This document shows, piece by piece, positions 11,484 to 29,986 of a stretch of DNA of 40,641 nucleotides (position 1 is its first letter; every line of letters begins with the position of its first letter). The position numbers were made by a program, and so were the translations under genes. Under the pieces are notes generated by a model. The model was not told the origin of the DNA and did no database searches. It worked only from the letters and a program-made list of their open reading frames with translations. Where the stretch lies: assembly GCA_003241215.1 (NCBI GenBank), contig QFOL01000007.1:1-40641 (forward strand), written 5' to 3'. Source of the stretch: Agrobacterium fabrum. Its GTDB lineage: Bacteria > Pseudomonadota > Alphaproteobacteria > Rhizobiales > Rhizobiaceae.

Positions 11484-11615
11484 CAACCACATTTGCAAAA
11501 TGTAAAGCCTCGAGGCCACATTTCCGTTATATTTTGTTCAAAACTCGAGATATTCCATTCATATGTGATGGAGTTCGCTTCCGCCTCCAACCATGCGGGT
11601 CACCTCAACACATTA

Positions 11616-12984: not shown

Positions 12985-13021
12985 CAAAAACCTCCCGGAC
13001 AGGCATGGTCTGTCCGGGAGG
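12985..13021 (-). terminator. Intrinsic terminator of the iolD-iolE operon
   Basis: A perfect 12-bp stem (CCTCCCGGACAG against CTGTCCGGGAGG), 7-base loop, followed on the minus strand by TTTTTG. It starts 28 bp beyond the last operon gene. Confidence 0.9.
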
Positions 13022-13048
13022 TCGATTTCCGGGCGCTGCGCTGAGCGT

Positions 13049-14212
13049 TTATACCGCCATCGGCGTGATCCAGCGCGGATCGGTACTTTCGGCGCTATCC
13101 ACCACCGCCTCCACGAAGGCCACACCCTTCAGACCGTCATAGGCGAGCGGGATGTTGCGACCGATAGCTCCCGGCTCGCGTCCCGCCCTGCGGGCGCGGA
13201 TCGCTTCCGCAAAGCCGGCGTAGAGATTGGCGAAGGCTTCCAGATATCCTTCCGGGTGGCCGGGCGGGGTGCGGGTGCGCGCCTTTGCGTCCTCGGAAAG
13301 ATCGTCCGCGCCCCGCTTGATGGTCTGCACACGCCCGTTAAGCGGTGTATAGACGAGTTCGTTCGGCTGTTCCTGAAACCATTGCAGCGAGCCGGTCGCG
13401 CCGAATACCCGCAGACGCACGCCGTTGGAGTTGCCCAGCGCCACCTGCGACGACCACAGGAGGCCGCGCGCCCCGCCTTCATAACGCATCATCACATGGG
13501 CATTGTCATCCAGCGCCCGCCCCGCCACGAAAGTGGCGAGATCGGCGGTGAGGGACTGCAGTTTCAGCCCGGTCACGAAACCGGCCAGATGATAGGCATG
13601 GGTGCCGATATCGCCGATGGAACCGCCGCGGCCGTTCTTCTTCGGGTCGGTGCGCCAGGCCGCCTGGGCATTGCCCTGCTGTTCGATGGCGGTCGCCATC
13701 CATTCCAGCGGATATTCCACCTGCACGGTGCGAACCTCGCCGATCTCACCAGCCGCCACGCGCGCACGGGCTTCATGAACCATCGGATAACCGGAATAGG
13801 TGTAGGTCACCCCGACGAAGCGGCCGCTTTCCCGCGACAGCTTTTCCAGCGAGATGGCATCTTCAAGCGTCGCGGTCAGCGGTTTTTCGCAGATCACGTC
13901 GAAACCGGCCTCGATCAGCGCTTTCGCTATCGGATAATGGGTGAAATTCGGCGTGCAGATCGCAACCGCATCGACGCGGTCCTCGCGGGCTGCCTCACCG
14001 GCGATCAGCTCCTGATAACTGCCGTAGCTGCGGGCCGGATCAAGCCCCTCATTGATGGCGAAGATGCGGCCCCTTTCGGGATCGACATCGAAGGCCCCGG
14101 CCACAAGCACCCATTTGCCGTCAAGGCGTGCGGCAAGACGATGGATATTGCCGATATAGGCGCCCTGGCCCCCGCCGATCATGCCCAGACGAAGCGGTCT
14201 TTCGATAGTCAT
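13049..14212 (-). CDS. Gfo/Idh/MocA-family dehydrogenase
   Basis: A cytoplasmic NAD(P)-dependent sugar or cyclitol dehydrogenase of 387 residues. The N-terminal Rossmann motif is GMIGGGQGAYIG; the EKP motif, with catalytic Lys110, lies in VICEKPLTA; and GGSIGDIGTHAYHLAG carries the Asp and His expected in the active site. Its ATG overlaps the stop of the upstream TIM-barrel gene (ATGA), so the two are translationally coupled. Gfo/Idh plus TIM-barrel pairs are common in rhizobial sugar loci, where they oxidise the C3 or C1 position and then isomerise or eliminate. It is the last gene of the operon, followed by a strong terminator. The exact substrate is unknown. Confidence 0.9.
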   Translation of the reverse strand: MTIERPLRLGMIGGGQGAYIGNIHRLAARLDGKWVLVAGAFDVDPERGRIFAINEGLDPARSYGSYQELIAGEAAREDRVDAVAICTPNFTHYPIAKALIEAGFDVICEKPLTATLEDAISLEKLSRESGRFVGVTYTYSGYPMVHEARARVAAGEIGEVRTVQVEYPLEWMATAIEQQGNAQAAWRTDPKKNGRGGSIGDIGTHAYHLAGFVTGLKLQSLTADLATFVAGRALDDNAHVMMRYEGGARGLLWSSQVALGNSNGVRLRVFGATGSLQWFQEQPNELVYTPLNGRVQTIKRGADDLSEDAKARTRTPPGHPEGYLEAFANLYAGFAEAIRARRAGREPGAIGRNIPLAYDGLKGVAFVEAVVDSAESTDPRWITPMAV

Positions 14213-15273
14213 TGTTCCCCCAGCCCCAGCATGGCGCGGTTGGCGTTGCGGTTCGCGCCGGATTTGACGAAATCGTCGAAGGCGCGGTCCGAGACGCGGA
14301 TGATGTGATCGGCGATGAAACGTGCGCCTTCAGACGCGCCGTCCTCCGGGTTTTTGACGAAACATTCCCACTCCAGCACCGCCCAGCCATCGAAGCCGTA
14401 GGTTGTGAGCTTCGTGAAGATCGCCCCGAAATCGATCTGCCCGTCGCCCGGGCTGCGGAAACGGCCGGCCCGTTTGGACCAGGGCTGATAGCCGCCATAG
14501 GCGCCGGACTTTCCGTCGGGGCGGAACTCGGCATCCTTGACGTGGAAGGTTTTAATCCGGTCGTGGTAATGGTCGATGAAAGCCAGATAATCCATTCCCT
14601 GCAGAACCAGATGCGAGGGATCATACATCAGGTTCGCCCGGGGATGCCCCTTGACCCTGTCGAGAAACATCTCCCAGCTATGGCCGTCATGCAGGTCTTC
14701 GCTCGGGTGGATTTCGTAGCAGACATCCACGCCATGGGCGTCGAAATCATCGAGGATCGGCGTCCAGCGGCGGGCAAGCTCGTCAAAACCTTCCTCCACC
14801 AGCCCTTCCGGCCATTGCGGATAGGGATAAAGATAGGGCCATAAAAGCGCACCGGGAAAGGTCACATGGCGGTCGATGCCGAGACGTTTCGAGGCGCGGG
14901 CGGCAAAGCGCAGCTGTTCCTCGGCCCACGCCCGACGCCTTGCGGGATTGCCGCGCACATGCTCGGGCGCAAAACTGTCCATGATCGCGTCATGGGCGGG
15001 ATGCACCGCCACAAGCTGCCCGGTGATGTGGGAGGCCAGCTCGGTGATCTCCAGCCCGTGCTCGCCGAGCATGCCTTTCAGATCGTCGCAATAGGCATCG
15101 CTTTCCGCCGCCTGTCTCATGTCGATCAGGCGCGTATCCCAGGTGGGAATCTGCACCCCTTTGAAGCCCTTGTCCGACGCCCACTTCGCCAGCGAGGCCA
15201 ACGAATTGTAGGGCGCCTCATCGGCGGCGAACTGCGCCAGGAAGACACCCGGCCCCTTGATGGTCCGCATCAT
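14209..15273 (-). CDS. Sugar phosphate isomerase/epimerase (xylose-isomerase-like TIM barrel)
   Basis: A 354-residue protein of the AP-endonuclease-2/IolE-IolI superfamily, metal-dependent isomerases, epimerases and dehydratases. Probable metal ligands sit in CYEIHPSED, NLMYDPSHL, FHVKDAEF and AVLEWECF. The start is placed at the first of two adjacent ATGs, with GGAGGAA six bases upstream; the longer reading frame would add 17 unlikely residues overlapping the upstream gene. It begins 1 bp after the SDR stop and overlaps the Gfo/Idh gene, so it belongs to the iolD-iolE operon. It is longer than typical IolI (about 280), and its YPYPQWPEGL insertion marks a distinct subfamily. It may act on the 3-keto product of the adjacent dehydrogenase. 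Confidence 0.88.
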   Translation of the reverse strand: MMRTIKGPGVFLAQFAADEAPYNSLASLAKWASDKGFKGVQIPTWDTRLIDMRQAAESDAYCDDLKGMLGEHGLEITELASHITGQLVAVHPAHDAIMDSFAPEHVRGNPARRRAWAEEQLRFAARASKRLGIDRHVTFPGALLWPYLYPYPQWPEGLVEEGFDELARRWTPILDDFDAHGVDVCYEIHPSEDLHDGHSWEMFLDRVKGHPRANLMYDPSHLVLQGMDYLAFIDHYHDRIKTFHVKDAEFRPDGKSGAYGGYQPWSKRAGRFRSPGDGQIDFGAIFTKLTTYGFDGWAVLEWECFVKNPEDGASEGARFIADHIIRVSDRAFDDFVKSGANRNANRAMLGLGEQ

Positions 15274-15274
15274 C

Positions 15275-16087
15275 TTATTCCTCCAGCTTTTTCGCCGGCA
15301 CCGGCGCGTCGTCATAACCGCCATAGACCGATTGATCGAAGGGGATCACGGCGCCCGTCATCATGCCGCTATCGTCGGATGCCATCCACAGGATGGCGCG
15401 GGCCACTTCGAGCGGATCGAGGATGCGCCCGAACGGCTTGGCCGCCGCCGCGCGGTCAATGAAATCGGGATCGCCGGTCTCGGAGAGGACGAGCTTGCGC
15501 TCGTGATCGGAGTTCATCCAGCCGATGTCGAGCTGGTTCACATGGATACGATGACGCATCAGTGAAAAGCCGGCATGGCGGGTGACGGTGGCAAGCGCGC
15601 CTTTTGACGCCGCATAAGGCGCAAGGAACGGCTGGCCTGTCAGACCCGACATCGACCCGACATTAACGACACGACCCTCTATCCCCTCGCGGATCATCAC
15701 CTTTGCCGCATCCTGAATGAGGAAGAATGGCGCACGCGTATTGACCGCGAACATGCGATCGAAAAGCTCGGGCGTCGTGTTGAGCATATTGCCGCGATCC
15801 GTCAGGCCCGCCGCATTAACGAGGATATCGACCCGCCCGAAGCGTTTGTCCGTCGCCGGAATGATGCTGCGGACGTCATCGATATCGCCGAGATCGGCCG
15901 CCACCATCTCGACCGGCACGCCTGTTTTCTGCGTGATGGCATCCGCGACCGCCTGGCCTTTTTCCACACCACGCCCGACGATGACGATTCCCGCCGCGCC
16001 CGCCTGCGCAAACACCTGCGCAACGGCTGCGCCCAGCCCCTGGGTTCCGCCGGTAATAACGGCGATCTTTCCTTCAATACGGTTCAT
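15275..16087 (-). CDS. Short-chain dehydrogenase/reductase (SDR)
   Basis: A 270-residue classical SDR. Cofactor motif TGGTQGLG (residues 12-19), NAAG (91-94), and catalytic Ser145, Tyr158 and Lys162 in the YAASK motif. The start overlaps the iolE stop (ATGA). The position between iolE and the TIM-barrel gene suggests oxidation or reduction of a ring hydroxyl of a cyclitol or its derivative. SDRs of this kind also act as inositol or gluconate dehydrogenases. The extended C-terminal tail (VPAKKLEE) carries no recognised motif. The substrate is not predictable from the sequence. Confidence 0.92.
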   Translation of the reverse strand: MNRIEGKIAVITGGTQGLGAAVAQVFAQAGAAGIVIVGRGVEKGQAVADAITQKTGVPVEMVAADLGDIDDVRSIIPATDKRFGRVDILVNAAGLTDRGNMLNTTPELFDRMFAVNTRAPFFLIQDAAKVMIREGIEGRVVNVGSMSGLTGQPFLAPYAASKGALATVTRHAGFSLMRHRIHVNQLDIGWMNSDHERKLVLSETGDPDFIDRAAAAKPFGRILDPLEVARAILWMASDDSGMMTGAVIPFDQSVYGGYDDAPVPAKKLEE

Positions 16088-16977
16088 TTCGCGACCTCAT
16101 ATCCAGCGGCGTCCATCACGCGCAGTAATTCCCTGTGCCCCTTCCGGGCCATGTCCAGCGGCGGGTTCCTGATCGGGTCCTGTTCCGCCTCGACCACGAA
16201 CCAGCCCTCGTAACCTTTCGACGCCAGCGCCTTGACGATCGCCTCGAAATCCAGGCTGCCGTCACCCGGCACGGTAAAGGCGCCCTTGATGACGGCATCA
16301 AGGAAACTCTCCCGGCTTCTGTCCAGCCCGTCGACAACCTCACGCCTGATATCCTTGGTGTGGACATGGGTAATGCGTGCATGGTGGTTTTCGATGACAC
16401 GCATGACATCGCCGCCCGCAAAGGCCATGTGCCCGGCATCAAACAGCAGCGGAACGGAGGAGTGCTTCATGAAGAGATCGAGTTCCGGCTCGGTCTCCAC
16501 CACGGCCGCCATATGGTGATGATAGGAAATCGGCATGCCCTTCGCCGCGCACCAGTCGGCAAAGTCGGACATCTTGCGGCCATAGGCCGCCATGCCGGCC
16601 TCGTCGAGCCGGGGCTTCGTGGCAAGCGGGGCCGAGCGCACGCCCTGAATGGAGCGCGCCGTTTCGCCATAAACAATGCAGGGCGCACCGGCGGCGATGA
16701 AGAATTCCATCTGCTGCGCGATACGGTCTTTCTCCACCTCTATATCGCCATCCAGCAGCAGCCCGGAGAACCAGCCGCCGCACACCGATATGCCGTAGCG
16801 GTCGAGGATCGGCCCAAGCTCCGCCATATCCATCGGGAAGCGGCGTCCGGTCTCCATTCCGGTAAAGCCGGCTTCGCTTGCCTGCCTCAGGCATTCCTGA
16901 AGGCTGACATCATCGGAAAGCTCGGCAAGATCGTCATTCCACCAGGCAATCGGCGCGATACCAAGTCTTGCTTTCAT
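16084..16977 (-). CDS. iolE: Myo-inosose-2 dehydratase
   Basis: Converts 2-keto-myo-inositol to trihydroxycyclohexane-dione, the second step of inositol breakdown. At 297 residues it is the normal IolE length. Starts MKARLGIAPIAWWNDDL and has GFTGMETGRRFP, GGWFSG and the metal-site strands ISYHHHMAAVVE, LLFDAGHMAF and HVHTKDIR, all typical of IolE. The start is at 16977, 1 bp after the iolD stop; the 44-residue longer frame reads antisense-like into iolD and is rejected. It is the second gene of the operon. No iolB or iolC follows, unlike most rhizobial iolCDEB clusters. A role on a substituted inosose is possible. Confidence 0.93.
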   Translation of the reverse strand: MKARLGIAPIAWWNDDLAELSDDVSLQECLRQASEAGFTGMETGRRFPMDMAELGPILDRYGISVCGGWFSGLLLDGDIEVEKDRIAQQMEFFIAAGAPCIVYGETARSIQGVRSAPLATKPRLDEAGMAAYGRKMSDFADWCAAKGMPISYHHHMAAVVETEPELDLFMKHSSVPLLFDAGHMAFAGGDVMRVIENHHARITHVHTKDIRREVVDGLDRSRESFLDAVIKGAFTVPGDGSLDFEAIVKALASKGYEGWFVVEAEQDPIRNPPLDMARKGHRELLRVMDAAGYEVAK

Positions 16978-16978
16978 C

Positions 16979-18850
16979 TCAGACCCCCACTCGCTGCGCC
17001 TTGCGGATGTTTTCCTGCGCGGCGCGGGCGGCACGCACAGTCTCGAAGCTGGAGACGGAGGGAACACCGACATCCCAGTCAGCATCGCCCGGCACCCATT
17101 TCCAGGCATCGGAAACGATGGAGATGACGGTCACGCCATCATTGCCCTGCGCCCAGATCATCGCATCTTCAAGATCGGCAAGGCTCTCCGCCCTGCGCGC
17201 ATGGGCGCCCATGGCTTGCGCATGCTTGACGAAATCGACATGCAGCGGATTTTCCCGGTCCGCCACACGGCAATCGGTCAGCAGGTTGTTGAAGCCGGGA
17301 ACACCCTTGGCCTGCTGCAGACGGTTGATGACAGCATAGCCGCCATTATCGCAGACCACCACGATCATCCTGTGCCCGGTAAGGGCGGCCGAATAAATAT
17401 CCGAGTTCATCATCATGTAGGTGCCGTCCCCCAGCATGACGATTGGAACGCCGCCGGTGCCGCCCGGCCCCTCCTGCGCCATGGAGCAACCCCAGCCGGC
17501 AGCGATTTCATAACCCATGCAGGAAAAACCGAATTCGCAATCGAACGTATTGGGGTTCTTCACCCGCCAGCCCTTGGTCACCTCCCCCGGCGTTCCGCCC
17601 GCCGCCGCAATCAGGGTGTCTTCGGGCCGGGCGACCCGGTTCAGAACCCCGACCACCTGCGCATAAGAGGGAACCGGCGCATTGGTGACCCGCTGGTGTT
17701 CGTCCAGCAGATTGTCCCATTCGGCGAACAGGGTTTTGGCCCGCTGCATATGCGCAGTATCGACCTTGTAGGCGCCAAGCGCGTGGTCCAGCTCGTCGAT
17801 CGTCTCGAACGCATCGCCGACCACGGAAAGCGCCCGGTGTTTCACCGCATCGAAGCGGGCGGCATTGACGGAAATGAACTGCGCATCACGGGAGAAAGCC
17901 GTCCAGGAACCCGTGGTGAAATCCTGAAGCCGGGTACCGATTGCCAGCACGACATCCGCCTCTTTCGCCAGCGCATTCGCGGAGGTCGATCCGACGATGC
18001 CGATAGGCCCGGCATGGACCGGATGGTGATGGGTGAGCGCGCCCTTGCCGGCGATGGTTTCGACCACGGGAATGCCGCGCTTCGCAGCGAATTCGGCAAG
18101 GCGTTCTTCCGCCAGCGAATAACGTACGCCGCCGCCGGAAATGATGAGCGGGCGTTTCGCCTGCGAGAGTAGCCGGGCGGCGGCCGCCACGGCGTCACGG
18201 TCCGGACGCGGGCGCGGGATTTTCCAGACCTTCGGTTCGAAGAAGACCGCCGGATAATCGAAAGCGATTTCCTGCGTATCCTGCGCAAGACCGATGAAAG
18301 CCGGGCCGCAATCGGCCGGATCGAGCATGGTGGCAACCGCCTGCGGCAGCGATTGCAGCAATTGTTCCGGCAGCACGATCCTGTCCCAGTAACGCACCAC
18401 GGATTTGAATGCATCATTGACGGTCAGCGTCGGATCGCCGAAATGCTCGACCTGCTGCAGAACCGGGTCCGGCAGGCGGCTTGCGAATGTATCGCCAGCG
18501 AGAAGCAGGACGGGAAGACGGTTGGCCATGGCAACGCCGGCGGCGGTCACCATGTTCAGCGCCCCCGGCCCGATCGATGTCGCGGCGACCATGATCTGCC
18601 TGCGCCTTTTTGCCTTGGCAAAACCGATTGCGGCAAGCGCCATGGATTGTTCGTTCTGCCCACGCCATGTCGGCAACTGGTCCTGCACCGTCTCCAGAGC
18701 TTCGGAAAGGCATGTGACATTGCCATGCCCGAAAATCGCGAAGACGCCCGCGAACAGCGGAACGCGCTCTCCGTCGATCTCGGTAAACTGGTTGCACAGG
18801 TAACGTACTAGCGCCTGAGCCATGGTCAGGCGTAAGGTCTTAGCGGTCAT
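16979..18850 (-). CDS. iolD: Trihydroxycyclohexane-1,2-dione hydrolase (ThDP enzyme)
   Basis: Thiamine-diphosphate-dependent C-C hydrolase that opens the cyclohexane ring to 5-deoxyglucuronate. 623 residues, as expected. Catalytic Glu67 lies in RGQNEQSMALA. The ThDP/Mg motif runs from GDG at 474-476 to Asn502 (CDNGGYAVI). IFGHGNVTCLSEAL and GWRVKNPNTFDCEFGFSCMGYEIAAGWG are IolD-specific. The ATG at 18850 has AGGAGG just upstream; the longer frame starting at 18913 overlaps the promoter and is rejected. It is the first gene of the minus-strand operon, divergent from the IolG-like gene, with an RpiR-type operator in the shared 105-bp promoter region. Product processing normally needs IolB, which is not in the window. 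Confidence 0.95.
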   Translation of the reverse strand: MTAKTLRLTMAQALVRYLCNQFTEIDGERVPLFAGVFAIFGHGNVTCLSEALETVQDQLPTWRGQNEQSMALAAIGFAKAKRRRQIMVAATSIGPGALNMVTAAGVAMANRLPVLLLAGDTFASRLPDPVLQQVEHFGDPTLTVNDAFKSVVRYWDRIVLPEQLLQSLPQAVATMLDPADCGPAFIGLAQDTQEIAFDYPAVFFEPKVWKIPRPRPDRDAVAAAARLLSQAKRPLIISGGGVRYSLAEERLAEFAAKRGIPVVETIAGKGALTHHHPVHAGPIGIVGSTSANALAKEADVVLAIGTRLQDFTTGSWTAFSRDAQFISVNAARFDAVKHRALSVVGDAFETIDELDHALGAYKVDTAHMQRAKTLFAEWDNLLDEHQRVTNAPVPSYAQVVGVLNRVARPEDTLIAAAGGTPGEVTKGWRVKNPNTFDCEFGFSCMGYEIAAGWGCSMAQEGPGGTGGVPIVMLGDGTYMMMNSDIYSAALTGHRMIVVVCDNGGYAVINRLQQAKGVPGFNNLLTDCRVADRENPLHVDFVKHAQAMGAHARRAESLADLEDAMIWAQGNDGVTVISIVSDAWKWVPGDADWDVGVPSVSSFETVRAARAAQENIRKAQRVGV

Positions 18851-18897
18851 CTCGCCTCCTCCTGCGGATGGTTGTTGATATGTTTTTGGAATGCATA

Positions 18898-18927
18898 TTG
18901 ACAAATTCAACACTTTGCAATGATTAT
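18898..18927 (+). promoter_or_regulatory. Candidate promoter of the plus-strand cyclitol operon
   Basis: TTGACA at 18898-18903 and GATTAT at 18922-18927, 18 bases apart, lie upstream of the IolG-like gene. The -10 overlaps the GCAA-N6-TTGC site, as expected for a repressed promoter. On the other strand TTGTCA-N17-ATATCA could serve iolD, but that is weaker. Confidence 0.5.
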
Positions 18928-18930
18928 TGC
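18917..18930. promoter_or_regulatory. RpiR-type operator in the iolD/iolG divergent promoter
   Basis: GCAATGATTATTGC, an inverted repeat with GCAA-N6-TTGC geometry. The same 14-bp pattern occurs upstream of the RpiR gene and of the ABC transporter operon, and no fourth copy was noticed in the window. Binding by the local RpiR protein is inferred. Confidence 0.7.
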
Positions 18931-18955
18931 CAAATACCTCGGGAGGAAAATTTCA

Positions 18956-19963
18956 ATGCTGAGAATTGCAGTGCTTGGCGTGGGCCGTATCGGCCGCATG
19001 CATGCGGAAAACATCGTCGCCCATCCACGGGCGACACTGGCTGGTGTCTTTGATGTATACGAGCCCTCGGCGAAAGAAATCGCCGAAAAGCTTGATGTAA
19101 CGAGGTTCGAGTCGGCGGAAGCGGTCTTCGCTTCGCCTGCGGTCGACGCCGTACTGATCGCCACCTCGACGCCCACCCATGCGGATCTGCTGGAGAAGGC
19201 GGTTGCGGCGGGAAAACCCGTCCTTTGCGAGAAGCCCATCGATCTCTCCCTCGACCGCGTCAATGCCTGCGCAACAAAAATTGCCGGCAGCAAGGTGCCG
19301 ATCATGCTCGGCTTCGTCAGACGTTTCGACAGCGGACATCGCGCCGTGCGCGAGGCGGTCGAGAACGGAACGATAGGCGAATTGCATCAGGCCGTCATCA
19401 CCTCGCGCGATCCGGGCATGGCGCCCGCCGCCTATATCGAAATGTCGGGCGGAATTTTCCGCGACATGACGATCCATGATTTCGACATGGCCCGCTTCAT
19501 TCTGGGTGAGGAGATCACTGAAGTCTCGGCCACCGGTTCGCGGCTGGTCGACCCGGCGCTGATGGAGAAGTGCGGTGACTACGACACCGTCACCGTGGTG
19601 CTGAAGACCGCTTCAGGCAAACAATGCACGATCAGCAATTCGCGGCGCGCGGTTTATGGCTATGACCAGCGGGTGGAGGCCTTCGGAAGTGCCGGCATGG
19701 CGATTTCTGAGAACCGGACGCTCAATCACCTGCGTCTCCACACGGAAAGCGGCACCGACCGGGCAGCACCGCTGATGAACTTCTTCATCGACCGTTATGC
19801 CGATGCCTTCGCAGCGGAAATCAGCGCCTTTGTCGATGCGGTGGAACAGGACAAGGCGCCGGAAGTGGGCTTTGAAGACGGCCGCCTGGCATTGCTTCTC
19901 GCCGAAGCGGCAATCCGTTCCGCCGCGGAAGGGCGCACCGTCAACACAAGCGAGATCGGGTAA
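18956..19963 (+). CDS. iolG: Inositol 2-dehydrogenase-like Gfo/Idh protein
   Basis: NAD-dependent dehydrogenase of 335 residues resembling IolG, which oxidises myo-inositol to 2-keto-myo-inositol. Rossmann motif VLGVGRIGRMHAENI (residues 7-21), catalytic Lys93 in CEKPIDL, and D170 and H174 in FRDMTIHDFDMARF, in line with B. subtilis IolG Lys97, Asp172 and His176 (from memory). The ATG at 18956 follows GGGAGGAA; the twelve extra residues of the longer frame would overlap the operator and are rejected. It heads the plus-strand operon and is divergent from iolD, so the two could carry out the first steps together with IolE. Rhizobia often have several IolG paralogues with different cyclitol preferences, so the symbol is provisional. 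Confidence 0.85.
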   Translation: MLRIAVLGVGRIGRMHAENIVAHPRATLAGVFDVYEPSAKEIAEKLDVTRFESAEAVFASPAVDAVLIATSTPTHADLLEKAVAAGKPVLCEKPIDLSLDRVNACATKIAGSKVPIMLGFVRRFDSGHRAVREAVENGTIGELHQAVITSRDPGMAPAAYIEMSGGIFRDMTIHDFDMARFILGEEITEVSATGSRLVDPALMEKCGDYDTVTVVLKTASGKQCTISNSRRAVYGYDQRVEAFGSAGMAISENRTLNHLRLHTESGTDRAAPLMNFFIDRYADAFAAEISAFVDAVEQDKAPEVGFEDGRLALLLAEAAIRSAAEGRTVNTSEIG

Positions 19964-19966
19964 GCC

Positions 19967-21397: not shown

Positions 21398-21424
21398 AGA
21401 CGGATATTCTTGCAGGAGAATCCC

Positions 21425-22237: not shown

Positions 22238-23206
22238 ATGCCGAACCTTCTCGTGGCCGGAAAACTTCATCCTTCCGGCGAAGCGATGCTGCGCGATCTG
22301 CCGTCCCTCGGCTTCTCCGTCCGCTATATCGAGGATGTTTCCGAAGCCTCCTATGCGCCCTTCATCGAGGAAGCGGATGCGATCGTCATCCGCACGCAAC
22401 CGCTCTCGGCGGCCACCATTGCAAAAGCCGGACGGTTGAAAGTGGTGTCCCGCCATGGGGTGGGTTACGACAGCGTCGATCTTGCCGAACTCAACCGCCG
22501 TAACATCGCGCTCACCATCGTCGGCGACGTCAATTCCGTCTCCGTCGCCGAACATGCAATGATGCTGCTGCTGGCGGCGGCAAAGCGGGCCATACTCGCC
22601 GACCGCGCGGTTCGCGAACCGGGAGAGTGGAGCTGGCGCAACAGGCTGGAGCAGCAGGAAATATCCGGCAAGAACCTCCTCATCCTCGGTTATGGCCGGA
22701 TCGGGCGGCATCTTGCCAGAATGGCGTCGGGTTTCGGCATGCATATCCGCGCCTACGACCCCTACCTGCTGCAATCGGGATGGCCCGAAGGGCCAACAAG
22801 ACCCGTATCGCTGGAAGAGGGCCTGCCCTGGGCCGACTATATTTCCGTGCATATTCCCAAGGGAGCAAGCCCGGCAATCGGGGCCGCCGAAATCGCCCTG
22901 ATGAAACCCGGCGTCGTTCTGTCCAATACGGCGCGCGGCGGCGTTGTCTGTGAGAAGGCGCTCAGCGAAGCGCTCGCCTCGGGTCATGTCGGCGCGGCCG
23001 GGCTGGATGTCTTCGATGACGAGCCGCCGGAAAGCTCCTCGCCGCTGCTGTCGCAGTTCAATACCGTCCTTTCGCCGCATATTGCCGGGCTTACGGCGGA
23101 ATGCGGGGAGAGGATGGCCATCGCGTCCATCCAGAACGCCGTCAATTACCTGAAAGGGACGATCGATCCCGGCCTCATCGTCAATCCGGAATTTGCCCAT
23201 GTCTGA
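22238..23206 (+). CDS. D-2-hydroxyacid dehydrogenase (phosphoglycerate-dehydrogenase-like)
   Basis: A 322-residue NAD-dependent dehydrogenase with the GYGRIGR nucleotide loop at about residue 150. The catalytic triad can be read as Arg in NTARGGVV, Glu in DVFDDEPPE and His in SPHIAGLTAE. Its ATG directly abuts the aldolase stop (TGA-ATG), with a G-rich Shine-Dalgarno in the aldolase end, so translation is coupled. It might reduce or oxidise a 2-keto/2-hydroxy acid intermediate in the lower pathway. Similar proteins include glyoxylate/hydroxypyruvate reductases; substrate choice needs biochemistry. Confidence 0.92.
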   Translation: MPNLLVAGKLHPSGEAMLRDLPSLGFSVRYIEDVSEASYAPFIEEADAIVIRTQPLSAATIAKAGRLKVVSRHGVGYDSVDLAELNRRNIALTIVGDVNSVSVAEHAMMLLLAAAKRAILADRAVREPGEWSWRNRLEQQEISGKNLLILGYGRIGRHLARMASGFGMHIRAYDPYLLQSGWPEGPTRPVSLEEGLPWADYISVHIPKGASPAIGAAEIALMKPGVVLSNTARGGVVCEKALSEALASGHVGAAGLDVFDDEPPESSSPLLSQFNTVLSPHIAGLTAECGERMAIASIQNAVNYLKGTIDPGLIVNPEFAHV

Positions 23207-24323
23207 AAAACCCGTTCTCCGCGTCGGCCTCATCGGCACCGGCTTCATGGGCAAAGCTCATGTCTTCGGTTTCGCCTCCGCCCAGAAGGTCTTCGACCTC
23301 CCCTACCGGATCGAATTGCACACCGTTGCCGACATCACCGAAGACACAGCCGCGCGCGCGGCGGCGGATTTCGGCTTCGCCCATTCCACGGCGGACTGGC
23401 GCAGCATCATCGCCGATCCGGATATCGACCTCGTCGACATCACCGCGCCGAACGCCCTGCACAAGGAAATGGCGCTTGCCGCCATTGCCGCCGGCAAACA
23501 TGTCTATTGCGAAAAGCCGCTGGCGCCGCTTGCTGCGGATGCCGGCGAGATGGCCGCAGCCGCGGCTGCGCGCGGCGTCAAAACGCAGGTGGGCTTCAAC
23601 TATCTCTGCAATCCCATGCTGCGGCTGGCGCGGGAAATGGTGGCCGCAGGCGAACTCGGCAAGATGCGCGGTTATCGTGGCCTGCATGCCGAGGACTACA
23701 TGGCCGACGCCGCAGGCGCCTTCACCTTCCGTCACGATCCGGCCGGCGGCGGCGCGCTTGCCGATATCGGCTCCCACGCACTTGCCACGGCCGAATTCCT
23801 GCTCGGCCCGATAACCCAGGTGATGGGCGATTGCGTGACGCTGATTGCCGAGCGGCCGGATGGCAGGGGCGGCGCACGCAAGGTGGAAGTGGACGATGTG
23901 GGGCGCGCCTTCCTGCGTTTCGCCAATGGCGCGCAGGGTTCGGCCGAAGGCAACTGGATCGCCACCGGCCGCAAGATGCAGCATGATTTCGAAATCTATG
24001 GCGACAAGGGTGCGCTTTATTTCACGCAGGAGCGCTTCAACGAGCTGCATTTCTATTCCGCCACCGACCCGGCCGGCCGCCGTGGCTTCCGCAAAATAGA
24101 GGCCTCTCCTGACCACGCACCCTATGGCCGCTTCTGCGTCGCACCCGGCCATCAGCTCGGCTTCAACGACCTGAAAGCCATCGAAATCGAGGGTTATCTC
24201 CGGGCAATCGCGGGACAGAGACCAGAGCCTTTCGGCTTCGCTGCCGGCCTGCGCATCCAGCGGCTGGTCGAGACGATCCAGCGCTCGTCATCCACACGGC
24301 AATGGCTGGATGTCGATGCCTGA
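23199..24323 (+). CDS. Gfo/Idh-family dehydrogenase resembling levoglucosan-type 3-dehydrogenases
   Basis: A 374-residue NAD-dependent dehydrogenase. Rossmann loop LIGTGFMGKAHVFGF, active-site Lys106 in CEKPLAP, Asp189 and His193 in GGGALADIGSHALATA. The DWRSIIADPDIDLVDI and ITAPNALHKE stretches resemble, as I recall them, LgdA-type enzymes that oxidise C3 of anhydro- or glycosyl-sugars. It overlaps the previous gene by 8 bp; the start at the ATG 23199 is preferred over an in-frame TTG six bases upstream. It is the third Gfo/Idh protein of the locus and the last enzyme gene before the regulator. It may prepare a glycosidic or ether bond for beta-elimination by a TIM-barrel partner. Confidence 0.9.
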   Translation: MSEKPVLRVGLIGTGFMGKAHVFGFASAQKVFDLPYRIELHTVADITEDTAARAAADFGFAHSTADWRSIIADPDIDLVDITAPNALHKEMALAAIAAGKHVYCEKPLAPLAADAGEMAAAAAARGVKTQVGFNYLCNPMLRLAREMVAAGELGKMRGYRGLHAEDYMADAAGAFTFRHDPAGGGALADIGSHALATAEFLLGPITQVMGDCVTLIAERPDGRGGARKVEVDDVGRAFLRFANGAQGSAEGNWIATGRKMQHDFEIYGDKGALYFTQERFNELHFYSATDPAGRRGFRKIEASPDHAPYGRFCVAPGHQLGFNDLKAIEIEGYLRAIAGQRPEPFGFAAGLRIQRLVETIQRSSSTRQWLDVDA

Positions 24324-24373
24324 AATCCCGGATTAAGCGGCGGGCTGCGGACCTTCATGCCACTTGGAAAACC

Positions 24374-24387
24374 GCAATAAATATTGC
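24374..24387. promoter_or_regulatory. RpiR-type operator in front of the regulator gene
   Basis: GCAATAAATATTGC, the best GCAA-N6-TTGC copy, ends 11 bp before the regulator ATG. Bound repressor would block its own expression, an autoregulation pattern. Confidence 0.7.
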
Positions 24388-24398
24388 AAGATCATGCC

Positions 24399-25283
24399 AT
24401 GAAGCAACAACCGCAGCCCGTCGACCCTCCGAAAGATTACGAAGAACTGATCCGCCTCATCCATGATCGTCATGATCAGATGAGCAAGACCTATCAGCGG
24501 ATCTCCGTCTATCTGACGCAGAATCCCAATGAAGTCGCAGTGCATTCGGTGAATACCATTGCCGAGCGGCACGACATCCACGCCTCCAGTTTCGTGCGGT
24601 TTGCGCAGTCGCTGGGCTACAAGGGTTTCAAGGAGCTGCAGGCGCTTTTCCAGAAACGATTGGCGACGGCGGCTCCGGGTTTCGAGGCGCGCGTGCGCGC
24701 GCTCGACGATGAATTGCAAAGCCGCGAGGACCGTTCGGAATATGGTTTCCTTCACGATCTTGTCGTCAGGGATATCGCCTCCCTTCAGGACCTGCTCGAA
24801 CGCATCAGCGCCGAACAGCTCGGCACCGCCGCCGATCTGATCGAGGCCGCCGGCACCGTCTATCTCGTCGGCCAGCTGCGCTCCGCACCGGTGGCGGAGC
24901 TGCTGCGTTACATCCTCACCATGCTCGGCAAGCAATGTATCCTTCTCGATCCCGGCGGCGGGCTCGCCACCCATATGGCGCGGACGATGAAGACCGGTGA
25001 CGTGCTGATCGCGGTGTCGTTCCGATTTTACGCGACGGAAGTGGTGAATATCGTCGAGGAGGCGGAAAAGATCGGCGTGCCGACCGTGGCGATTTCCGAC
25101 AGCACCCTGTCGCCGCTGGCAAAATCGGCAAAGGTCCTGTTTTCGGTCCCCGAGCACGATTACAGCTTTTCCCGGTCTCTGGCCGCGCCAATGTGCCTTG
25201 CGCAGGCTCTGGCCGTCGCCGTTGCCGCGCGTGTTCAGAAGAACGAAACGGCGCCGCGCATTCCGACGGTGACCGGCCTCTAG
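24399..25283 (+). CDS. RpiR-family transcriptional regulator (IolR-like)
   Basis: A 294-residue regulator with an N-terminal RpiR helix-turn-helix (YQRISVYLTQNP, then SVNTIAERHDI and ASSFVRFAQSLGYKGFKEL) and a C-terminal SIS domain (AAGTVYLVGQLRSAPVAELL, then GDVLIAVSFRFYATEV) that senses a sugar or cyclitol phosphate or similar ligand. Start at the ATG 24399; a TTG 15 bp upstream lies inside the operator and is rejected. No strong ribosome-binding site is visible. It follows the catabolic operon by 75 bp and faces the transporter operon tail to tail. The shared operator motif suggests it controls all three transcripts of the locus. Confidence 0.93.
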   Translation: MKQQPQPVDPPKDYEELIRLIHDRHDQMSKTYQRISVYLTQNPNEVAVHSVNTIAERHDIHASSFVRFAQSLGYKGFKELQALFQKRLATAAPGFEARVRALDDELQSREDRSEYGFLHDLVVRDIASLQDLLERISAEQLGTAADLIEAAGTVYLVGQLRSAPVAELLRYILTMLGKQCILLDPGGGLATHMARTMKTGDVLIAVSFRFYATEVVNIVEEAEKIGVPTVAISDSTLSPLAKSAKVLFSVPEHDYSFSRSLAAPMCLAQALAVAVAARVQKNETAPRIPTVTGL

Positions 25284-25293
25284 GCACCCACAC

Positions 25294-26049
25294 TCAAAGC
25301 CCTGTCACGCCGTCCCAGATCAGCTTCACCGCCACCAGCGCCACGGACACATAGGTCAGCGGATAAAAGATCGAGGCGCGCATGTGGCGCACCGTCCAGG
25401 CGCCAAGCCATGTGGAGACGATCGCCAGCGGCACCATCAGGGCGGCGCGGCCGAGATTTTGCGCGCCGAAACCGCCGAGAGCCGCGTAGGGCACGAGTTT
25501 CAGCACATTGGTGATGGCAAAGAACATCACATTGGTGCCGGTAAAGACCTTCGGGTCCATGCGAAGCGGCAGCAGGTAGACCTGCAGCGGCGGCGCGCCG
25601 GCATGGGCAACGAAGCTGGTGTAACCCGCAAGCAGGCTCCAGAACCGCCCGGCCATCGGCCGCTCCTTCGCGGCCATCACCCGAACGCCTCTCGAAAGAA
25701 CCACGCGCAGCACGAACACGGCAGAAACCAGGCCGACGATAAGGCGCACCACGGCATCCGAGGTGATCTCGGCGGTCATCCATCCGAGCCCGATGCCAAC
25801 GACGGCCGCCGGCAGAAGCTGTCGCATGATCCGCCAGTCGACCCAGTTGCGCCATGCCGCCACCCCGACCATGTCCATGACCACCAGAATGGGCAACAGG
25901 ATGGCCGCTGCCGTGACCGGCGACATCACCAACGCCATCAGCGGCACGCCGAGCAGGCTCATGCCGCCGAGCCCGCCCTTGGAAAGCCCGACCAGCACGA
26001 CGGCGAGCACGGTGACGCCCAGTTCCAGAGGAGAGTTGAAAAGGCTCAA
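25294..26049 (-). CDS. TSUP-family (TauE/SafE) permease
   Basis: A 251-residue membrane protein with about eight hydrophobic segments and two family repeats (VLVGLSKGGLGGMSLLGVP; TSFVAHAGAPPLQVY), diagnostic of TauE/SafE exporters of sulfite, sulfonates or organic acids. The start is a TTG at 26049 with AGGAG six bases upstream. It is 57 bp downstream of the ABC permease gene and so is probably the last gene of the transporter operon. It converges with the regulator gene with only a 10-bp gap, leaving no room for a terminator. Its presence in an inositol-type locus is unusual; it could export an acid by-product. Confidence 0.9.
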   Translation of the reverse strand: MSLFNSPLELGVTVLAVVLVGLSKGGLGGMSLLGVPLMALVMSPVTAAAILLPILVVMDMVGVAAWRNWVDWRIMRQLLPAAVVGIGLGWMTAEITSDAVVRLIVGLVSAVFVLRVVLSRGVRVMAAKERPMAGRFWSLLAGYTSFVAHAGAPPLQVYLLPLRMDPKVFTGTNVMFFAITNVLKLVPYAALGGFGAQNLGRAALMVPLAIVSTWLGAWTVRHMRASIFYPLTYVSVALVAVKLIWDGVTGL

Positions 26050-26106
26050 GTATATCTCCTCGGCATCGCCGCCGGCACCCCCTTCGGGGCACCGCGCGCA
26101 TGGATA

Positions 26107-27120
26107 TCAGCCCTTCCGGAGCCGGGCTTTTTGACGGTAGACATCAGCAACGACCGCGCTGACGATGATCAGTCCCTTGACGATCTCCTGATAATAAGCA
26201 TCCACGCGCAGGAATGTGAAGCCGGACATCATCAGGCCGAGGATCACCGTGCCGATGACGGTGCCGAAAATGCGGCCCCGGCCGCCCGAGAGCGAAGTAC
26301 CGCCGATGACCGCCGCGGCGATGGCGTCCAGTTCGTACATCATGCCCATGCCGGCCTGCGCCGTTTCCGCGCGGGCGGCGGTGACGATGCCGGCGAGGCC
26401 TGCGAGCAGGCCGGCAATGGCATAGACCTTGACCAGATGCAGCTGGACATTGATGCCGGACACCCGGGCCGCCTGCATGTTCGCGCCGATCGCATAGGTG
26501 AACTTGCCATAGCGTGTATAACGCAGGGCAATGTGGAAGGTGACGGCGACAAGCAGGAAAATGACGACCGGCCATGCGCCCGAGCCGATCGAGGCGAAGC
26601 TTTCGGTCGGAAAGGAGATCGGCTGGCCCTTCGTATACCACTTGGCGATGCCGCGTGCGGTGACCATCATGCCGAGCGTGGCGATGAAGGGCGGTATTCC
26701 CGTGACCGCGATGAGCGTGCCGTTGACGATGCCGGCGATCAGGCCGAGACCGAGGCCGACGGCCAGCGGCACCACCACGGGCATATCGGTCAGCGCCGGA
26801 TAGATCGCCCTGGCAAAATCGCTGCTCTGGGCAAAACTCATGGCGATCATGGCCGTCATCGCCACCACCGACCCCGAACTGAGATCGATGCCGCCGGTGA
26901 TGATGACCTGGGTGACACCGACGGCGATGATGCCGACGACGGAGACCTGCAGGATCATGATCGTCAGGCGCTGCGGGTTGGCGAGAAAACTCTGCCCCTG
27001 CACGAACCATCCGAGCAGTTCGAAGACCAGGGCGACGCCGATCAGCACGGTCAGAATGTTCAGCTCCTGCGGCAGCTTTCGTCTTTTCGTTTCGACCGGC
27101 TCGGTCTGTACGCTATCCAT
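26107..27120 (-). CDS. Sugar/inositol ABC transporter permease (RbsC family)
   Basis: A 337-residue membrane subunit with the BPD_transp_2 pattern: ITGGIDLSSGSVVAMTAMIA, GIPPFIATLGMMVTARGIAKWY, then GLLAGLAGIVTAAR and the coupling-loop stretch AIAAAVIGGTSLSGGRG. ATG at 27120 has GGGGAGGAAA upstream; the longer frame adds 27 basic residues antisense to the ATPase gene and is rejected. Two copies would form the channel with the ATPase encoded just upstream. Resembles the permease of the Caulobacter and rhizobial inositol importers. Confidence 0.93.
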   Translation of the reverse strand: MDSVQTEPVETKRRKLPQELNILTVLIGVALVFELLGWFVQGQSFLANPQRLTIMILQVSVVGIIAVGVTQVIITGGIDLSSGSVVAMTAMIAMSFAQSSDFARAIYPALTDMPVVVPLAVGLGLGLIAGIVNGTLIAVTGIPPFIATLGMMVTARGIAKWYTKGQPISFPTESFASIGSGAWPVVIFLLVAVTFHIALRYTRYGKFTYAIGANMQAARVSGINVQLHLVKVYAIAGLLAGLAGIVTAARAETAQAGMGMMYELDAIAAAVIGGTSLSGGRGRIFGTVIGTVILGLMMSGFTFLRVDAYYQEIVKGLIIVSAVVADVYRQKARLRKG

Positions 27121-27154
27121 AATTTTTCCTCCCCGGCGTTTCCGCCGTTGCGGC

Positions 27155-28690
27155 CTAGCGGGCCGCCAGTTCCATGATTTTGACTTGGTCCGCTTCGGCA
27201 CGGTCGAGAATCCCGGTCATGTGCCCCTCATGCATCACGAGGATCCGGTCCGACATGCCGAGGACCTCCGGCAGCTCCGAAGAGATCATGATGACGGCGA
27301 CGCCCTCCTTCGCCAGATTGGAAATCAGCCGGTGGATTTCCGCCTTGGCGCCCACATCGATGCCGCGTGTCGGCTCATCCAGAATAAGGATCGCAGGTTT
27401 CGTCAAAAGCCAGCGGGCGATCAGCACCTTCTGCTGGTTGCCGCCGGACAGGTTTTCGATACGCTCCTCGAGATCGGGCGTCTTGATGCGCAGCGCCTTC
27501 TTCATGTCATTGCACAGCACCGTCAGCCCGCGCTCATCGACACAACCCATCGTTACGTGGCCATTCCGGAGGGCTGCGATCTGCATGTTTTCGAGAATAG
27601 AAAGCGGCAGAAAACAGCCGGTTGCCTTGCGGTCTTCGGTCAGCAGCGCCATGCCCTCGCGCATCGCATCCGTCGGCGAACGGATCGTGACCGGAGCGCC
27701 GTTGATGCGAATTTCCCCCTCGCTTGCCGGCGCCACCCCGAAAATCGCCTCGGCGACGTTGGAACGGCCTGAGCCTACCAGCCCCGCAAGGCCGAGGATT
27801 TCGCCGCGATGCAGATCGAAGGAAATATCCCGGAAAACCCCTGGCAGACCGAGATCACGGACCTCGAGAACCACGTCGCCGATCGATGCCTCCTGCTTGG
27901 GAAACATGTTGGTGATCTCGCGGCCGACCATCATTCTGATGATGTCATCGCGCGTGACATCGCTGCTCGCATGGGTTCCGACATATCGCCCGTCGCGGAA
28001 CACCGAAAACTCGTCGGCGATCTCGAACAGCTCGTTCATCTTGTGGGTGATGTAGACGATGCCGATATTGCGGGACCGCAGGTCGCGGATGATATCGAAG
28101 AGATGCGCGACCTCTGATTCCGTCAGGGCCGATGTCGGCTCATCCATGATCAGCACACTGGACTGGTAACTGACGGCCTTGGCGATTTCGACCATCTGCC
28201 GCTGCGCCACCGTCAGCGTGCTGACCTCCGCCGCCGGATCGATATTGATCTTCAGCTGGTTAAACAGCGCCTGCGTATCGGCAAGCATTTTTGCATGGTC
28301 TATCAGGCCCAGACGGTTTTTCGGCTCGCGGCGGATCCAGATGTTCTCCGCCACGGTCATCCAGTCCATCAGCGCCAGTTCCTGATGGATCATGGCGATG
28401 CCGCGCTCCAGCGCATCGCGCGGACTTTTGAGGCGGACATCCTCTCCCCGCAGCCTGACGGTGCCGGCATCCGGGCTGTAGATACCGGCGATGATCTTCA
28501 TGAGCGTCGACTTGCCGGCGCCATTTTCGCCCATCAGCGCGTGCACGGAACCGGAGCGCAGGCGGAACTGCACATCATCCAGCGCAACGACTCCCGGAAA
28601 TTCCTTCCGCACCCCCTCGATTTCGAGAAGATAAGGTCCGATGGTCTGCTTGAAGCGCTCGATCGCCTCTAAGGTGGTCGTGGAAATCAT
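27155..28690 (-). CDS. Sugar/inositol ABC transporter ATPase, tandem domains
   Basis: A 511-residue protein with two fused nucleotide-binding domains (RbsA/MglA type). First domain: Walker [10 protein letters not shown], degenerate signature [13 protein letters not shown], Walker [12 protein letters not shown]. Second domain: GLVGSGRSN in place of a standard Walker A, signature [15 protein letters not shown], and [18 protein letters not shown]. This pattern is normal for sugar importers of this family, where the second site is partly degenerate. ATG at 28690 has AAGGA about ten bases upstream. Lies between the binding protein and permease genes and powers import. Confidence 0.95.
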
Positions 28691-28710
28691 ATCTCACCCG
28701 TCCTTTATCC

Positions 28711-28768
28711 GGCCGCCGGCCGGGCCATGATTTGCAGCGCCGGCGACCGGGACAAGGCCCCGGCCGCC
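28711..28768 (-). other. GC-rich imperfect stem-loop between binding-protein and ATPase genes
   Basis: GGCCGGGCC at 28718-28726 can pair with GGCCCCGGCC at 28756-28765 with one bulge. Such hairpins often stabilise the binding-protein part of ABC importer mRNAs. Weak evidence, shown by base pairing only. Confidence 0.35.
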
Positions 28769-28777
28769 AGCCGCAAA

Positions 28778-29707
28778 TCAGTTGCTGGACTTGTATTGAG
28801 CGACATTGGCGGGGGTAACGAGCTCGAAGGGCACATCCACCTTCTGCTCGAATTTTTCGCCACGCGCGATTTTGAGGACGGTCTCGAGAGAGCCTTCGCC
28901 CTGCCCCTTGGCGGACTGGTAGACCGTGACGTCGAGGTCGCCCGCTTCCATGGCCGCCAGCGCGTCCTGCGTTGCGTCAACACCCGCGACAATGACATCC
29001 TTCATGCCGACACCGGAGGATTTCAGCGCCTGGATCGCGCCGAGCGCCATCTCGTCATTGTTTCCAAGCACGATGGTCGGTTTCATTCCCGATGTGATCC
29101 AGTTGGTCATCAGGTCCATGGCCGGGGTGCGCATCCAGTTAGCGGTCTGCGCGTCCAGCAGCTTGATGTTTTTGCAGGCATCGCTTTTGAGGACACGTTC
29201 GGCTGCCGCCGTGCGGCCACGCTGACCGGTGGTGCCGAGCTGGCCCATGAGAATGACGGCATCGCCCTTGCCGGCGGCAAGCTTGCAGACCTCGGTCGCC
29301 TGCAATTCACCGGCCTGCTCCTCATTGGAGCCGACCCATGCCTGCTTTTCCGGGAATTTTTCCATATTGGCCGGCAGCATGTTCACGAAAACCAGCGGAA
29401 TGCCCGCCTGATCGGCGATCTTCGACATGGCCTTGCCGGAATCCGCATCCACCAGCATGGTGATGATGCCGTCGACACCGGCGGCAACGAAATTTTCGAT
29501 CTGCGACTGCTGCCGGGCAATATCGCCCTGCGCATCTTCCATCTGGACTTCGACGCCGAGGTCCTTGGCGTGGCGCTGGATATTGTGACGCAACACGGTC
29601 AGGTAGTTATCATCGAAGAGCGACATTGCCACGCCGATCTTCTCGGCATGGGCAGCGCTTGCCATCAGGGCGCAGAATGCGGTTGTGACTGCGATTTTCT
29701 TGATCAC
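28778..29707 (-). CDS. Periplasmic sugar/inositol-binding protein of the ABC importer
   Basis: A 309-residue type I periplasmic binding protein with a Sec signal peptide (about residues 1-21, ending AAHA before EKIGVAMSL). The start is a GTG at 29707 with GAGGAG upstream; the longer frame begins at 29818 but has no signal-like start. Family features are GVAMSLFDDNYLT, GDIARQQSQIENFVAAGVDGII, GNNDEMALGAIQAL and VIVAGVDATQDAL. Resembles IbpA/MocB/IntA-type inositol or rhizopine binders. First gene of the transporter operon, with a 250-base leader and an RpiR-type operator at the promoter. Binds the substrate imported for the two divergent catabolic operons. Confidence 0.92.
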   Translation of the reverse strand: MIKKIAVTTAFCALMASAAHAEKIGVAMSLFDDNYLTVLRHNIQRHAKDLGVEVQMEDAQGDIARQQSQIENFVAAGVDGIITMLVDADSGKAMSKIADQAGIPLVFVNMLPANMEKFPEKQAWVGSNEEQAGELQATEVCKLAAGKGDAVILMGQLGTTGQRGRTAAAERVLKSDACKNIKLLDAQTANWMRTPAMDLMTNWITSGMKPTIVLGNNDEMALGAIQALKSSGVGMKDVIVAGVDATQDALAAMEAGDLDVTVYQSAKGQGEGSLETVLKIARGEKFEQKVDVPFELVTPANVAQYKSSN

Positions 29708-29960
29708 GAGATTTTCTCCTCCTCTTTTCCCCGCACGTACGAATGTGTGCGACCACGCAAACCGGGCTCCCGGCCATCTCCAGGGCATGACTTCGCCTTG
29801 ACGGATGCAGCAGCACAATCCGCCTCAAGCGAGGTCATGTCCTTTCGATCAGCCGAAACGGCAGCACTGTTTGCGCGCAGCTTGAGTGCCGCGCTCGTCT
29901 CTCCCATGCGGCCGGCATTTTCCGGCTGCAGTTTCAACATAACGGGATGAAACAGGATTC

Positions 29961-29986
29961 GCAACAAAAATTGCAGAATTTTTATA
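29961..29986 (-). promoter_or_regulatory. Transporter promoter with RpiR-type operator
   Basis: GCAACAAAAATTGC at 29961-29974 fits GCAA-N6-TTGC. TATAAA at 29981-29986 on the minus strand looks like a -10 box seven bases upstream of it, so the operator would cover the transcription start. A matching -35 is not clear. Confidence 0.65.

Follow-up and report, generated by a model that had tools for sequence, protein, structure and literature searches.

How does a bacterium use inositol when a locus encodes the enzymes that open the ring without those of the usual lower branch? This question is raised by a 40,641-nucleotide stretch of Agrobacterium fabrum DNA (GenBank assembly GCA_003241215.1, contig QFOL01000007.1, positions 1 to 40,641), hereafter called the window, in which a putative inositol regulon spans positions 13049-29707. 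The regulon encodes IolG, IolE and IolD, all of which exceed the NCBI curated equivalog cut-offs in profile searches, together with an aldehyde dehydrogenase (ALDH), a HpcH/HpaI-type aldolase and a D-2-hydroxyacid dehydrogenase (HADH). None of iolA, iolB and iolC was found among the window open reading frames (ORFs) scanned, a subset of 74 mechanical ORFs. Judging from sequence, we consider it reasonably likely that the locus is an inositol regulon with its own lower branch, in which the ALDH-aldolase-HADH trio is predicted to replace IolB, IolC and IolJ by an oxidise-then-split route; this would be a new, predicted variant of inositol catabolism. A previous sequence-only reading of the window had listed IolG, IolE, IolD, two Gfo/Idh enzymes, a short-chain dehydrogenase/reductase (SDR), the aldolase, the ALDH, the HADH, an RpiR regulator and an ABC importer, and had noticed that iolA, iolB and iolC are missing from the locus. 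All of this is confirmed here, and its interpretation of the locus is partly supported.

The genes are arranged in divergent groups. On the minus strand the order is iolD, iolE, SDR, hyd and gfo1; the divergent plus strand carries iolG, ALDH, aldolase, HADH, gfo3 and then rpiR; and beyond rpiR, tauE, a permease, an ATPase and a binding protein lie on the minus strand. The starts and coordinates were inspected on the window sequence; the ORFs used in the profile scans are slightly longer for IolG, IolE and IolD.

13049..14212, minus: gfo1, Gfo/Idh/MocA oxidoreductase, partner of the hydratase-like gene (Pfam PF01408/PF22725; best solved relative 3v5n, 391.8 bits)
14209..15273, minus: hyd, TIM barrel homologous to 2-hydroxy-3-keto-glucal hydratase (AtHYD) (8ro4, 524.8 bits over 350 residues; start placed at an ATG with a ribosome-binding site)
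15275..16087, minus: SDR oxidoreductase, PRK06198 subfamily (NF004847 371.7 bits, cut-off 240)
16084..16977, minus: iolE, myo-inosose-2 dehydratase (TIGR04379 384.6 bits, cut-off 290)
16979..18850, minus: iolD, type 2 clade by the tree, ring-opening hydrolase (TIGR04377 801.3 bits, cut-off 715)
18917..18930, no strand: candidate operator palindrome GCAATGATTATTGC in the iolD/iolG gap (GCAA-N6-TTGC)
18956..19963, plus: iolG, inositol 2-dehydrogenase (TIGR04380 425.8 bits, cut-off 355)
19967..21397, plus: ALDH, succinate-semialdehyde dehydrogenase-like, proposed 5-deoxyglucuronate dehydrogenase (TIGR01780 487.6 bits, below the cut-off of 646.35; best solved relative 3jz4)
21425..22237, plus: HpcH/HpaI-type metal aldolase, proposed 2-oxo-3,4-dihydroxyadipate aldolase (PF03328; SwHKA-group structures 200-206 bits)
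22238..23206, plus: HADH, D-2-hydroxyacid dehydrogenase (PGDH-like), proposed 5-deoxyglucarate 2-dehydrogenase (PF02826/PF00389; TIGR01327 220.4 bits, below the cut-off of 454)
23199..24323, plus: gfo3, Gfo/Idh oxidoreductase related to scyllo-inositol/L-glucose dehydrogenase (4fb5 306.2 bits; 5ya8 275.4 bits)
24374..24387, no strand: candidate operator palindrome GCAATAAATATTGC upstream of rpiR (GCAA-N6-TTGC)
24399..25283, plus: RpiR-family regulator, HTH_6 and SIS (PF01418, PF01380)
25294..26049, minus: TauE/SafE family membrane protein, inside the unit (PF01925 107.4 bits)
26107..27120, minus: sugar-type ABC permease (PF02653 135.5 bits)
27155..28690, minus: sugar-type ABC ATPase, MglA/RbsA-like (611.1 bits, below the equivalog cut-off)
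28778..29707, minus: periplasmic sugar/cyclitol-binding protein (PF13407 170 bits; best solved relative 4yo7, 178.3 bits)
29961..29974, no strand: candidate operator palindrome GCAACAAAAATTGC upstream of the ABC operon (GCAA-N6-TTGC)

The ALDH, the aldolase and the HADH exceed none of the displayed cut-offs (for the ALDH, among the best 25 of 42 families), so that they belong to known superfamilies without a named function. The Thermotoga-type route was rejected, as its epimerase IolO reached a best score of 29 bits in the window against a cut-off of 300.

Is the trio a constant companion of the inositol genes? A search of GTDB genomes with the aldolase gave 101 relatives, and the locus counts below rest on the best 80 of these, with flanks of up to 10 kb a side. 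The ALDH, aldolase and HADH genes occur together in 47 of the 80 loci, and in all 47 they are adjacent, in that order and on one strand. With the thresholds used, 33 loci fall outside this group, six with either ALDH or HADH and 27 without both. We define as core loci the 41 trio loci with a type-2 iolD or an iolE in the flank. Besides iolD (38 of 41), iolE (34) and iolG (36), they contain SDR (38), rpiR (32), gfo3 (25), gfo1 (23) and hyd (23), and a canonical gene lies near the trio in few of them (iolC in three, iolB in one). The other six trio loci are L029 (a 4.6 kb fragment), L063, L068, L070, L071 and L075. The hosts span Rhizobiales, Rhodobacterales, Burkholderiales, Pseudomonas gingeri and one Acidobacteria metagenome-assembled genome (MAG). 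The closest relatives of the window locus are found in Rhizobium rhizogenes GBBC3284 and Agrobacterium tumefaciens UMA610, with 99% identity in the aldolase and per-gene tblastn identities of 95-100%; the same gene order in other genomes, which the sequence-only reading had called for, is seen gene by gene in these two. We regard it as firm that this is an inositol locus conserved across genomes and equipped with a non-canonical trio. In the Paracoccus and R. daejeonense versions (three of the 41 core loci), a full-length pyruvate carboxylase gene is inserted before rpiR (L001 17545-20991, L002 17318-20752). The plasmid-borne locus of Jiella pelagia (L005) is adjoined by rhizopine-type genes for a MocE ferredoxin, an FAD oxidoreductase and a sterol-desaturase-like protein, with TraB/TraM conjugation genes nearby.

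The ring-opening enzyme itself differs from that of the canonical systems. In a tree of 65 IolD proteins, one strong branch (100/100 support) separates 11 rows from 54. The smaller side consists of eight proteins whose genes have iolB or iolC close by, of L091 and L092, and of L016, from a locus with both systems. The larger side includes the window IolD and comprises 46 proteins with an aldolase or HADH link, four that are encoded near iolC in the genomes G045-G048, and four unlabelled ones; the IolD of genome G257 is long-branched and its placement is unsure. As judged from this tree, the window IolD is outside the clade of iolB/iolC-linked IolD. In L091 and L092 (genomes G106 and G250), IolD stands with IolG in quite different surroundings: neither iolB nor iolC is matched in the vicinity, the genomes have no iolB, and L092 adjoins an oligopeptide-type ABC importer.

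What could the trio do with the product of IolD? In the route that we propose, the substrate would be imported by the ABC transporter, oxidised by IolG, dehydrated by IolE and ring-opened by IolD to 5-deoxyglucuronate, as in the known pathway. The known pathway continues with isomerisation by IolB, phosphorylation by IolC and cleavage by IolJ; here the ALDH would instead oxidise the C1 aldehyde of 5-deoxyglucuronate to 5-deoxyglucarate, and the HADH would then oxidise the alpha-hydroxyl of 5-deoxyglucarate to give 2-oxo-3,4-dihydroxyadipate. The alpha-hydroxyl in the D-gluco series should be of D/R configuration. Oxidation at C1 and then at C2 would give a 2-oxo acid with a C4 hydroxyl, the form that HpcH/HpaI aldolases cleave, and the aldolase is predicted to split it between C3 and C4 into hydroxypyruvate and malonate semialdehyde. 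Malonate semialdehyde could be converted to acetyl-CoA by an MmsA/IolA encoded elsewhere, and hydroxypyruvate could enter glycolysis by way of glycerate. All the substrates, the order of the two oxidations and the products are what we infer from the chemistry of the enzyme families.

The aldolase has features consistent with this role. Among solved structures it is closest to the SwHKA group (200-206 bits, versus 123 for HpaI), and SwHKA uses or binds hydroxypyruvate, according to PMC10099721. Each of the 61 aldolases with an HADH-like gene at most 3 kb away retains the base His, the Arg and the metal ligands, Glu and Asp (the HADH-like neighbour of one, L081, reaches only 34%). An invariant His in the same 61 occupies the position of SwHKA Phe210, the residue touching the donor C3. 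The locus aldolase shares the base, the Arg and the metal ligands with SwHKA and other HpcH/HpaI aldolases; it differs by the His where SwHKA has Phe210 and by its setting in an inositol regulon.

The outlet for malonate semialdehyde can also be followed in gene neighbourhoods. An MmsA gene directly follows a related aldolase gene on the same strand in L072, L074, L078, L084 and L085 (the MmsA of L084 scores 692.4 bits with TIGR01722) and is adjacent on the opposite strand in L057; the type-2 loci L011, L046 and L055 hold MmsA within 10 kb of the trio. Among ten host genomes tested, MmsA was over the cut-off in seven, the others being G036, G042 and G399. These data bear on an assignment of other roles within the same lower branch, in which the ALDH would convert malonate semialdehyde to malonate, the HADH would reduce hydroxypyruvate to glycerate, and the SDR or a Gfo enzyme would make the 2-oxo acid. 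The kinship of the ALDH with succinate-semialdehyde dehydrogenases, its nearest relatives, would suit such roles, as would the hydroxypyruvate reductases in the HADH family; yet MmsA makes a second malonate semialdehyde outlet unneeded in the seven hosts, and no SDR was matched by the queries in the G257 locus, so we regard this assignment as very improbable. The five loci with the same-strand pair belong to acetic acid bacteria, and the pair is probably part of another pathway ending in malonate semialdehyde; in L084, the one locus of the five whose surroundings were examined, its neighbours are a LysR regulator, an OprB porin and a transporter of the galactonate type. In Tabrizicola (L037), a related aldolase directly follows a molybdenum CO-dehydrogenase-type oxidase, a candidate aldehyde-oxidising partner.

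Do any hosts rely on the trio? We sought iolB in 50 of the 53 chosen host genomes. No match was found in G027 (Acuticoccus kalidii), G036 (the Acidobacteria MAG) and G042 (a Rubellimicrobium MAG), and the match in G031 was below the cut-off. Since iolC is over the cut-off in G042, that genome is not a clean case; none is over the cut-off in G027 or G036. The sole iolD over the cut-off in A. kalidii sits in the trio locus, and the iolD of G036 is in two pieces, below the cut-off. In a class sample of 385 genomes, iolD was over the cut-off in 56, iolB in 22, and both in 20. Of the 56 genomes with iolD, 11 match iolB less well, at 80-200 bits, and 25 show no match of even that strength; 23 of these 25 gave no iolB match, and G283 and G398 gave traces (49.6 and 33.8 bits). 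Some aldolase match was present somewhere in 17 of the 25, and the aldolase lies within 10 kb of iolD in only three, G027, G257 and G399; at most six candidates were scored per genome, so that a few may be missed. G257 is a single contig of 1,199,990 bases, a 1.2 Mb genome, which makes assembly gaps unlikely there. It has no iolB match, its best iolC scores 87.5 bits against a cut-off of 300, and its IolG, IolE and IolD, all over the cut-offs, lie around a diverged ALDH-aldolase-HADH set (40%, 44% and 36% identity to the window, respectively). G134 is like G257, except that the trio and the iolEDG genes are on two separate contigs. No iolC over the cut-off was found in G257, G399 or G134. One of the two explanations offered by the sequence-only reading, that the aldolase, the ALDH and the hydroxyacid dehydrogenase make up a new lower route, is well supported by the gene order of the 47 trio loci, the IolD tree and the set-bearing genomes with neither an iolB match nor an iolC over the cut-off.

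Several observations, however, weigh against the proposed route. Most hosts (46 of 50) have iolB over the cut-off, so that in them the product could also enter the IolB/IolC branch. Two Paracoccus plasmids hold iolB and iolC beside the set, both outlets in one cluster; in G045-G048 the type-2 iolD is less than 4 kb from iolC and the trio is on another contig; and L047, L087 and L088 carry the aldolase by iolD without the full trio. Missing iolB alone was rejected as a marker of the route: 22 of the 25 iolB-lacking iolD genomes have no aldolase near iolD, so its absence proves little, and other IolB-free arrangements exist. As for the enzyme, the invariant His is shared by all six MmsA-linked aldolases and by 22 of a further 24 relatives, a set in which one protein is not a true aldolase; it therefore marks a wider group and not only inositol loci. 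The stereochemistry reported for SwHKA is (3S,4S), versus (3S,4R) expected by our own assignment. Finally, a glycerate-kinase-like gene, the only hydroxypyruvate-disposal gene sought and with one query, was found in only L004, the source of the query, and L079; L004 is the sole type-2 locus with it, and its neighbours there resemble serine-cycle genes.

The frequency of iolB also bears on the nature of the substrate. The set might serve a different cyclitol (a stereoisomer, a deoxy or an O-methyl inositol), from which IolG, IolE and IolD would produce a 5-deoxyglucuronate diastereomer that is no substrate for IolB, with the trio as the matching lower branch. A second set kept under seemingly separate control in hosts that mostly retain iolB suggests another substrate, and so do the extra dehydrogenases around it, namely the SDR and gfo3, whose nearest relative of named function is the scyllo-inositol dehydrogenase 5ya8 (its top match, 4fb5, is an unnamed oxidoreductase). 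Nevertheless, IolG, IolE and IolD exceed cut-offs set for myo-inositol equivalogs, and the occurrence of the same IolD type with or near iolC in the two Paracoccus plasmids and in G045-G048 suggests a common product. We consider a different cyclitol unlikely, albeit the most serious of the alternatives. The binding protein is best matched by 4yo7, a myo-inositol-binding protein (the next best structure scores 118.3 bits). On the reading that we prefer, with 5-deoxyglucuronate oxidised and then split, the trio would be a second outlet where iolB and iolC are also present, as in the closest kin of the window (L006/G001 and L007/G002), which have iolB, iolC and a second iolD elsewhere in the genome.

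A further possibility concerns hyd. The sequence-only reading had called the TIM barrel at 14209-15273 a second isomerase, which does not hold, as its nearest solved relative is the hydratase 8ro4, from its deposited name presumably AtHYD itself. The Agrobacterium AtHYD pathway proceeds by glucoside oxidation, elimination, hydration and reduction (PMC10628242), and the locus shares with this non-hydrolytic glycoside pathway (GlycDH, AtOGE, AtHYD, Gfo) an AtHYD homologue beside a Gfo enzyme. No eliminase or flavin GlycDH was identified in the locus scans, in which no search aimed at AtOGE was made; the Gfo enzymes might act as C3 oxidases. It could be argued that the locus only cleaves glycosyl-inositols, with HYD and Gfo treating the sugar part, the trio degrading the oxidised sugar acid, and the inositol going to IolB and IolC elsewhere. 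The presence of hyd and of gfo1, each in 23 of the 41 core loci, is in keeping with this, as are L063, L068, L070, L071 and L075, in which hyd and gfo1 directly follow the trio with no iolD nearby (in the genomes of L068, L070, L071 and L075 a type-2 iolD is on another contig near iolC, and iolB is also present). But the trio accompanies IolD or IolE also in the 18 core loci where HYD was not found at the threshold applied, G027 and G257 would be left with no known outlet for 5-deoxyglucuronate, and the window lacks an identified eliminase, so cleavage alone appears quite improbable. Of the modified or glycosylated cyclitol that the sequence-only reading had put forward, one clue remains, the AtHYD homologue with its Gfo partner, and the eliminase is the part not found. 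Because hyd is homologous to a glucal hydratase, glucosyl- or galactosyl-inositol is a reasonable candidate for an extra substrate in the hyd-bearing loci.

Are these genes under common control? Copies of the palindrome GCAA-N6-TTGC stand before three promoters: one in the iolD/iolG gap (18917), one upstream of rpiR (24374) and one upstream of the ABC operon (29961). Further exact copies are inside iolD (18618), iolG (19271) and the ATPase gene (28281), with one outside the locus (8424). The seven palindromes of the window compare with 1.21 expected and with four as the largest number in 100 shuffles. The palindrome was found in 42 of 44 related iolD-to-iolG/ALDH gaps (it is absent in L003 and L090), whereas 500 base shuffles of the 44 gaps averaged 0.09 and never exceeded two; the shuffles keep base content only, and the related sequences are not independent. 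The locus is likely under common control as one regulon, and we infer that RpiR acts at the GCAA-N6-TTGC sites before the iolD/iolG, rpiR and ABC promoters. The operator of the rhizobial RpiR-type IolR is GGAA-N6-TTCC; it was rejected as a candidate here: its single match in the window lies within rpiR and is at chance level, and the 44 iolD gaps have none. That iolA, iolB and iolC might lie elsewhere under the same RpiR, the refutation suggested by the sequence-only reading, is borne out in so far as iolB and iolC occur elsewhere in the nearest genomes; no exact GCAA-N6-TTGC was found in nine canonical iolB/iolC/iolD stretches (L101-L109, 5-10 kb each, with promoters beyond them unseen).

Compared with the canonical iol pathway, the locus has IolG, IolE and IolD of the same families and is proposed to yield malonate semialdehyde likewise; it differs in that IolB, IolC, IolJ and the kinase step are not found in it, in having the ALDH, HADH and aldolase instead, and in its separate IolD clade. 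The aldolase and semialdehyde dehydrogenase superfamilies and a similar retro-aldol logic recur in the lower pathways of 4-hydroxyphenylacetate and aldarates (HpaI with succinate-semialdehyde dehydrogenase, GarL), though the locus proteins are below the equivalog or subfamily cut-offs of HpaI, GarL and succinate-semialdehyde dehydrogenase. Seen across the hosts, it seems slightly more probable than improbable that a phosphate-free lower inositol pathway exists in Alphaproteobacteria and in some Burkholderiales, Pseudomonas and Acidobacteria, that an IolD clade and an RpiR operator of its own belong to it, and that some hosts have it as their sole outlet. No publication on an oxidise-then-split inositol route was among the titles listed in searches of the open-licence PubMed Central (PMC) literature, which is not proof that none is in print. 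In soil, inositol derived from plant phytate is a widely available source of carbon. A different solution, the alternative aldolase IolC-DUF2090, is described in PMC9007349, and a large genome survey scored inositol use by iolB, iolC, iolD and iolE (PMC9430895). If the bypass is true, that rule would miss users such as Acuticoccus, and many plant-associated bacteria would hold two separately placed inositol outlets. Concrete functions would also be given to proteins now labelled succinate-semialdehyde dehydrogenase, aldolase/citrate lyase family protein and hydroxyacid dehydrogenase. Hydroxypyruvate-releasing aldolases, whose synthetic use is described in PMC10099721, would gain a possible natural role.

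Two features of the window lie outside the locus. An orphan F0F1 ATP synthase subunit A gene (4627-5223) follows an RND efflux pair. Its product starts near position 56 of the family model and no further ATP synthase gene was seen next to it; it is probably a fragment or duplicate. A separate polyol-type operon (7418-12654) encodes an FGGY (glycerol-kinase-like) kinase, a DeoR regulator and two FAD oxidoreductases, one of which is glycerol-3-phosphate-oxidase-like and carries a BFD [2Fe-2S] domain.

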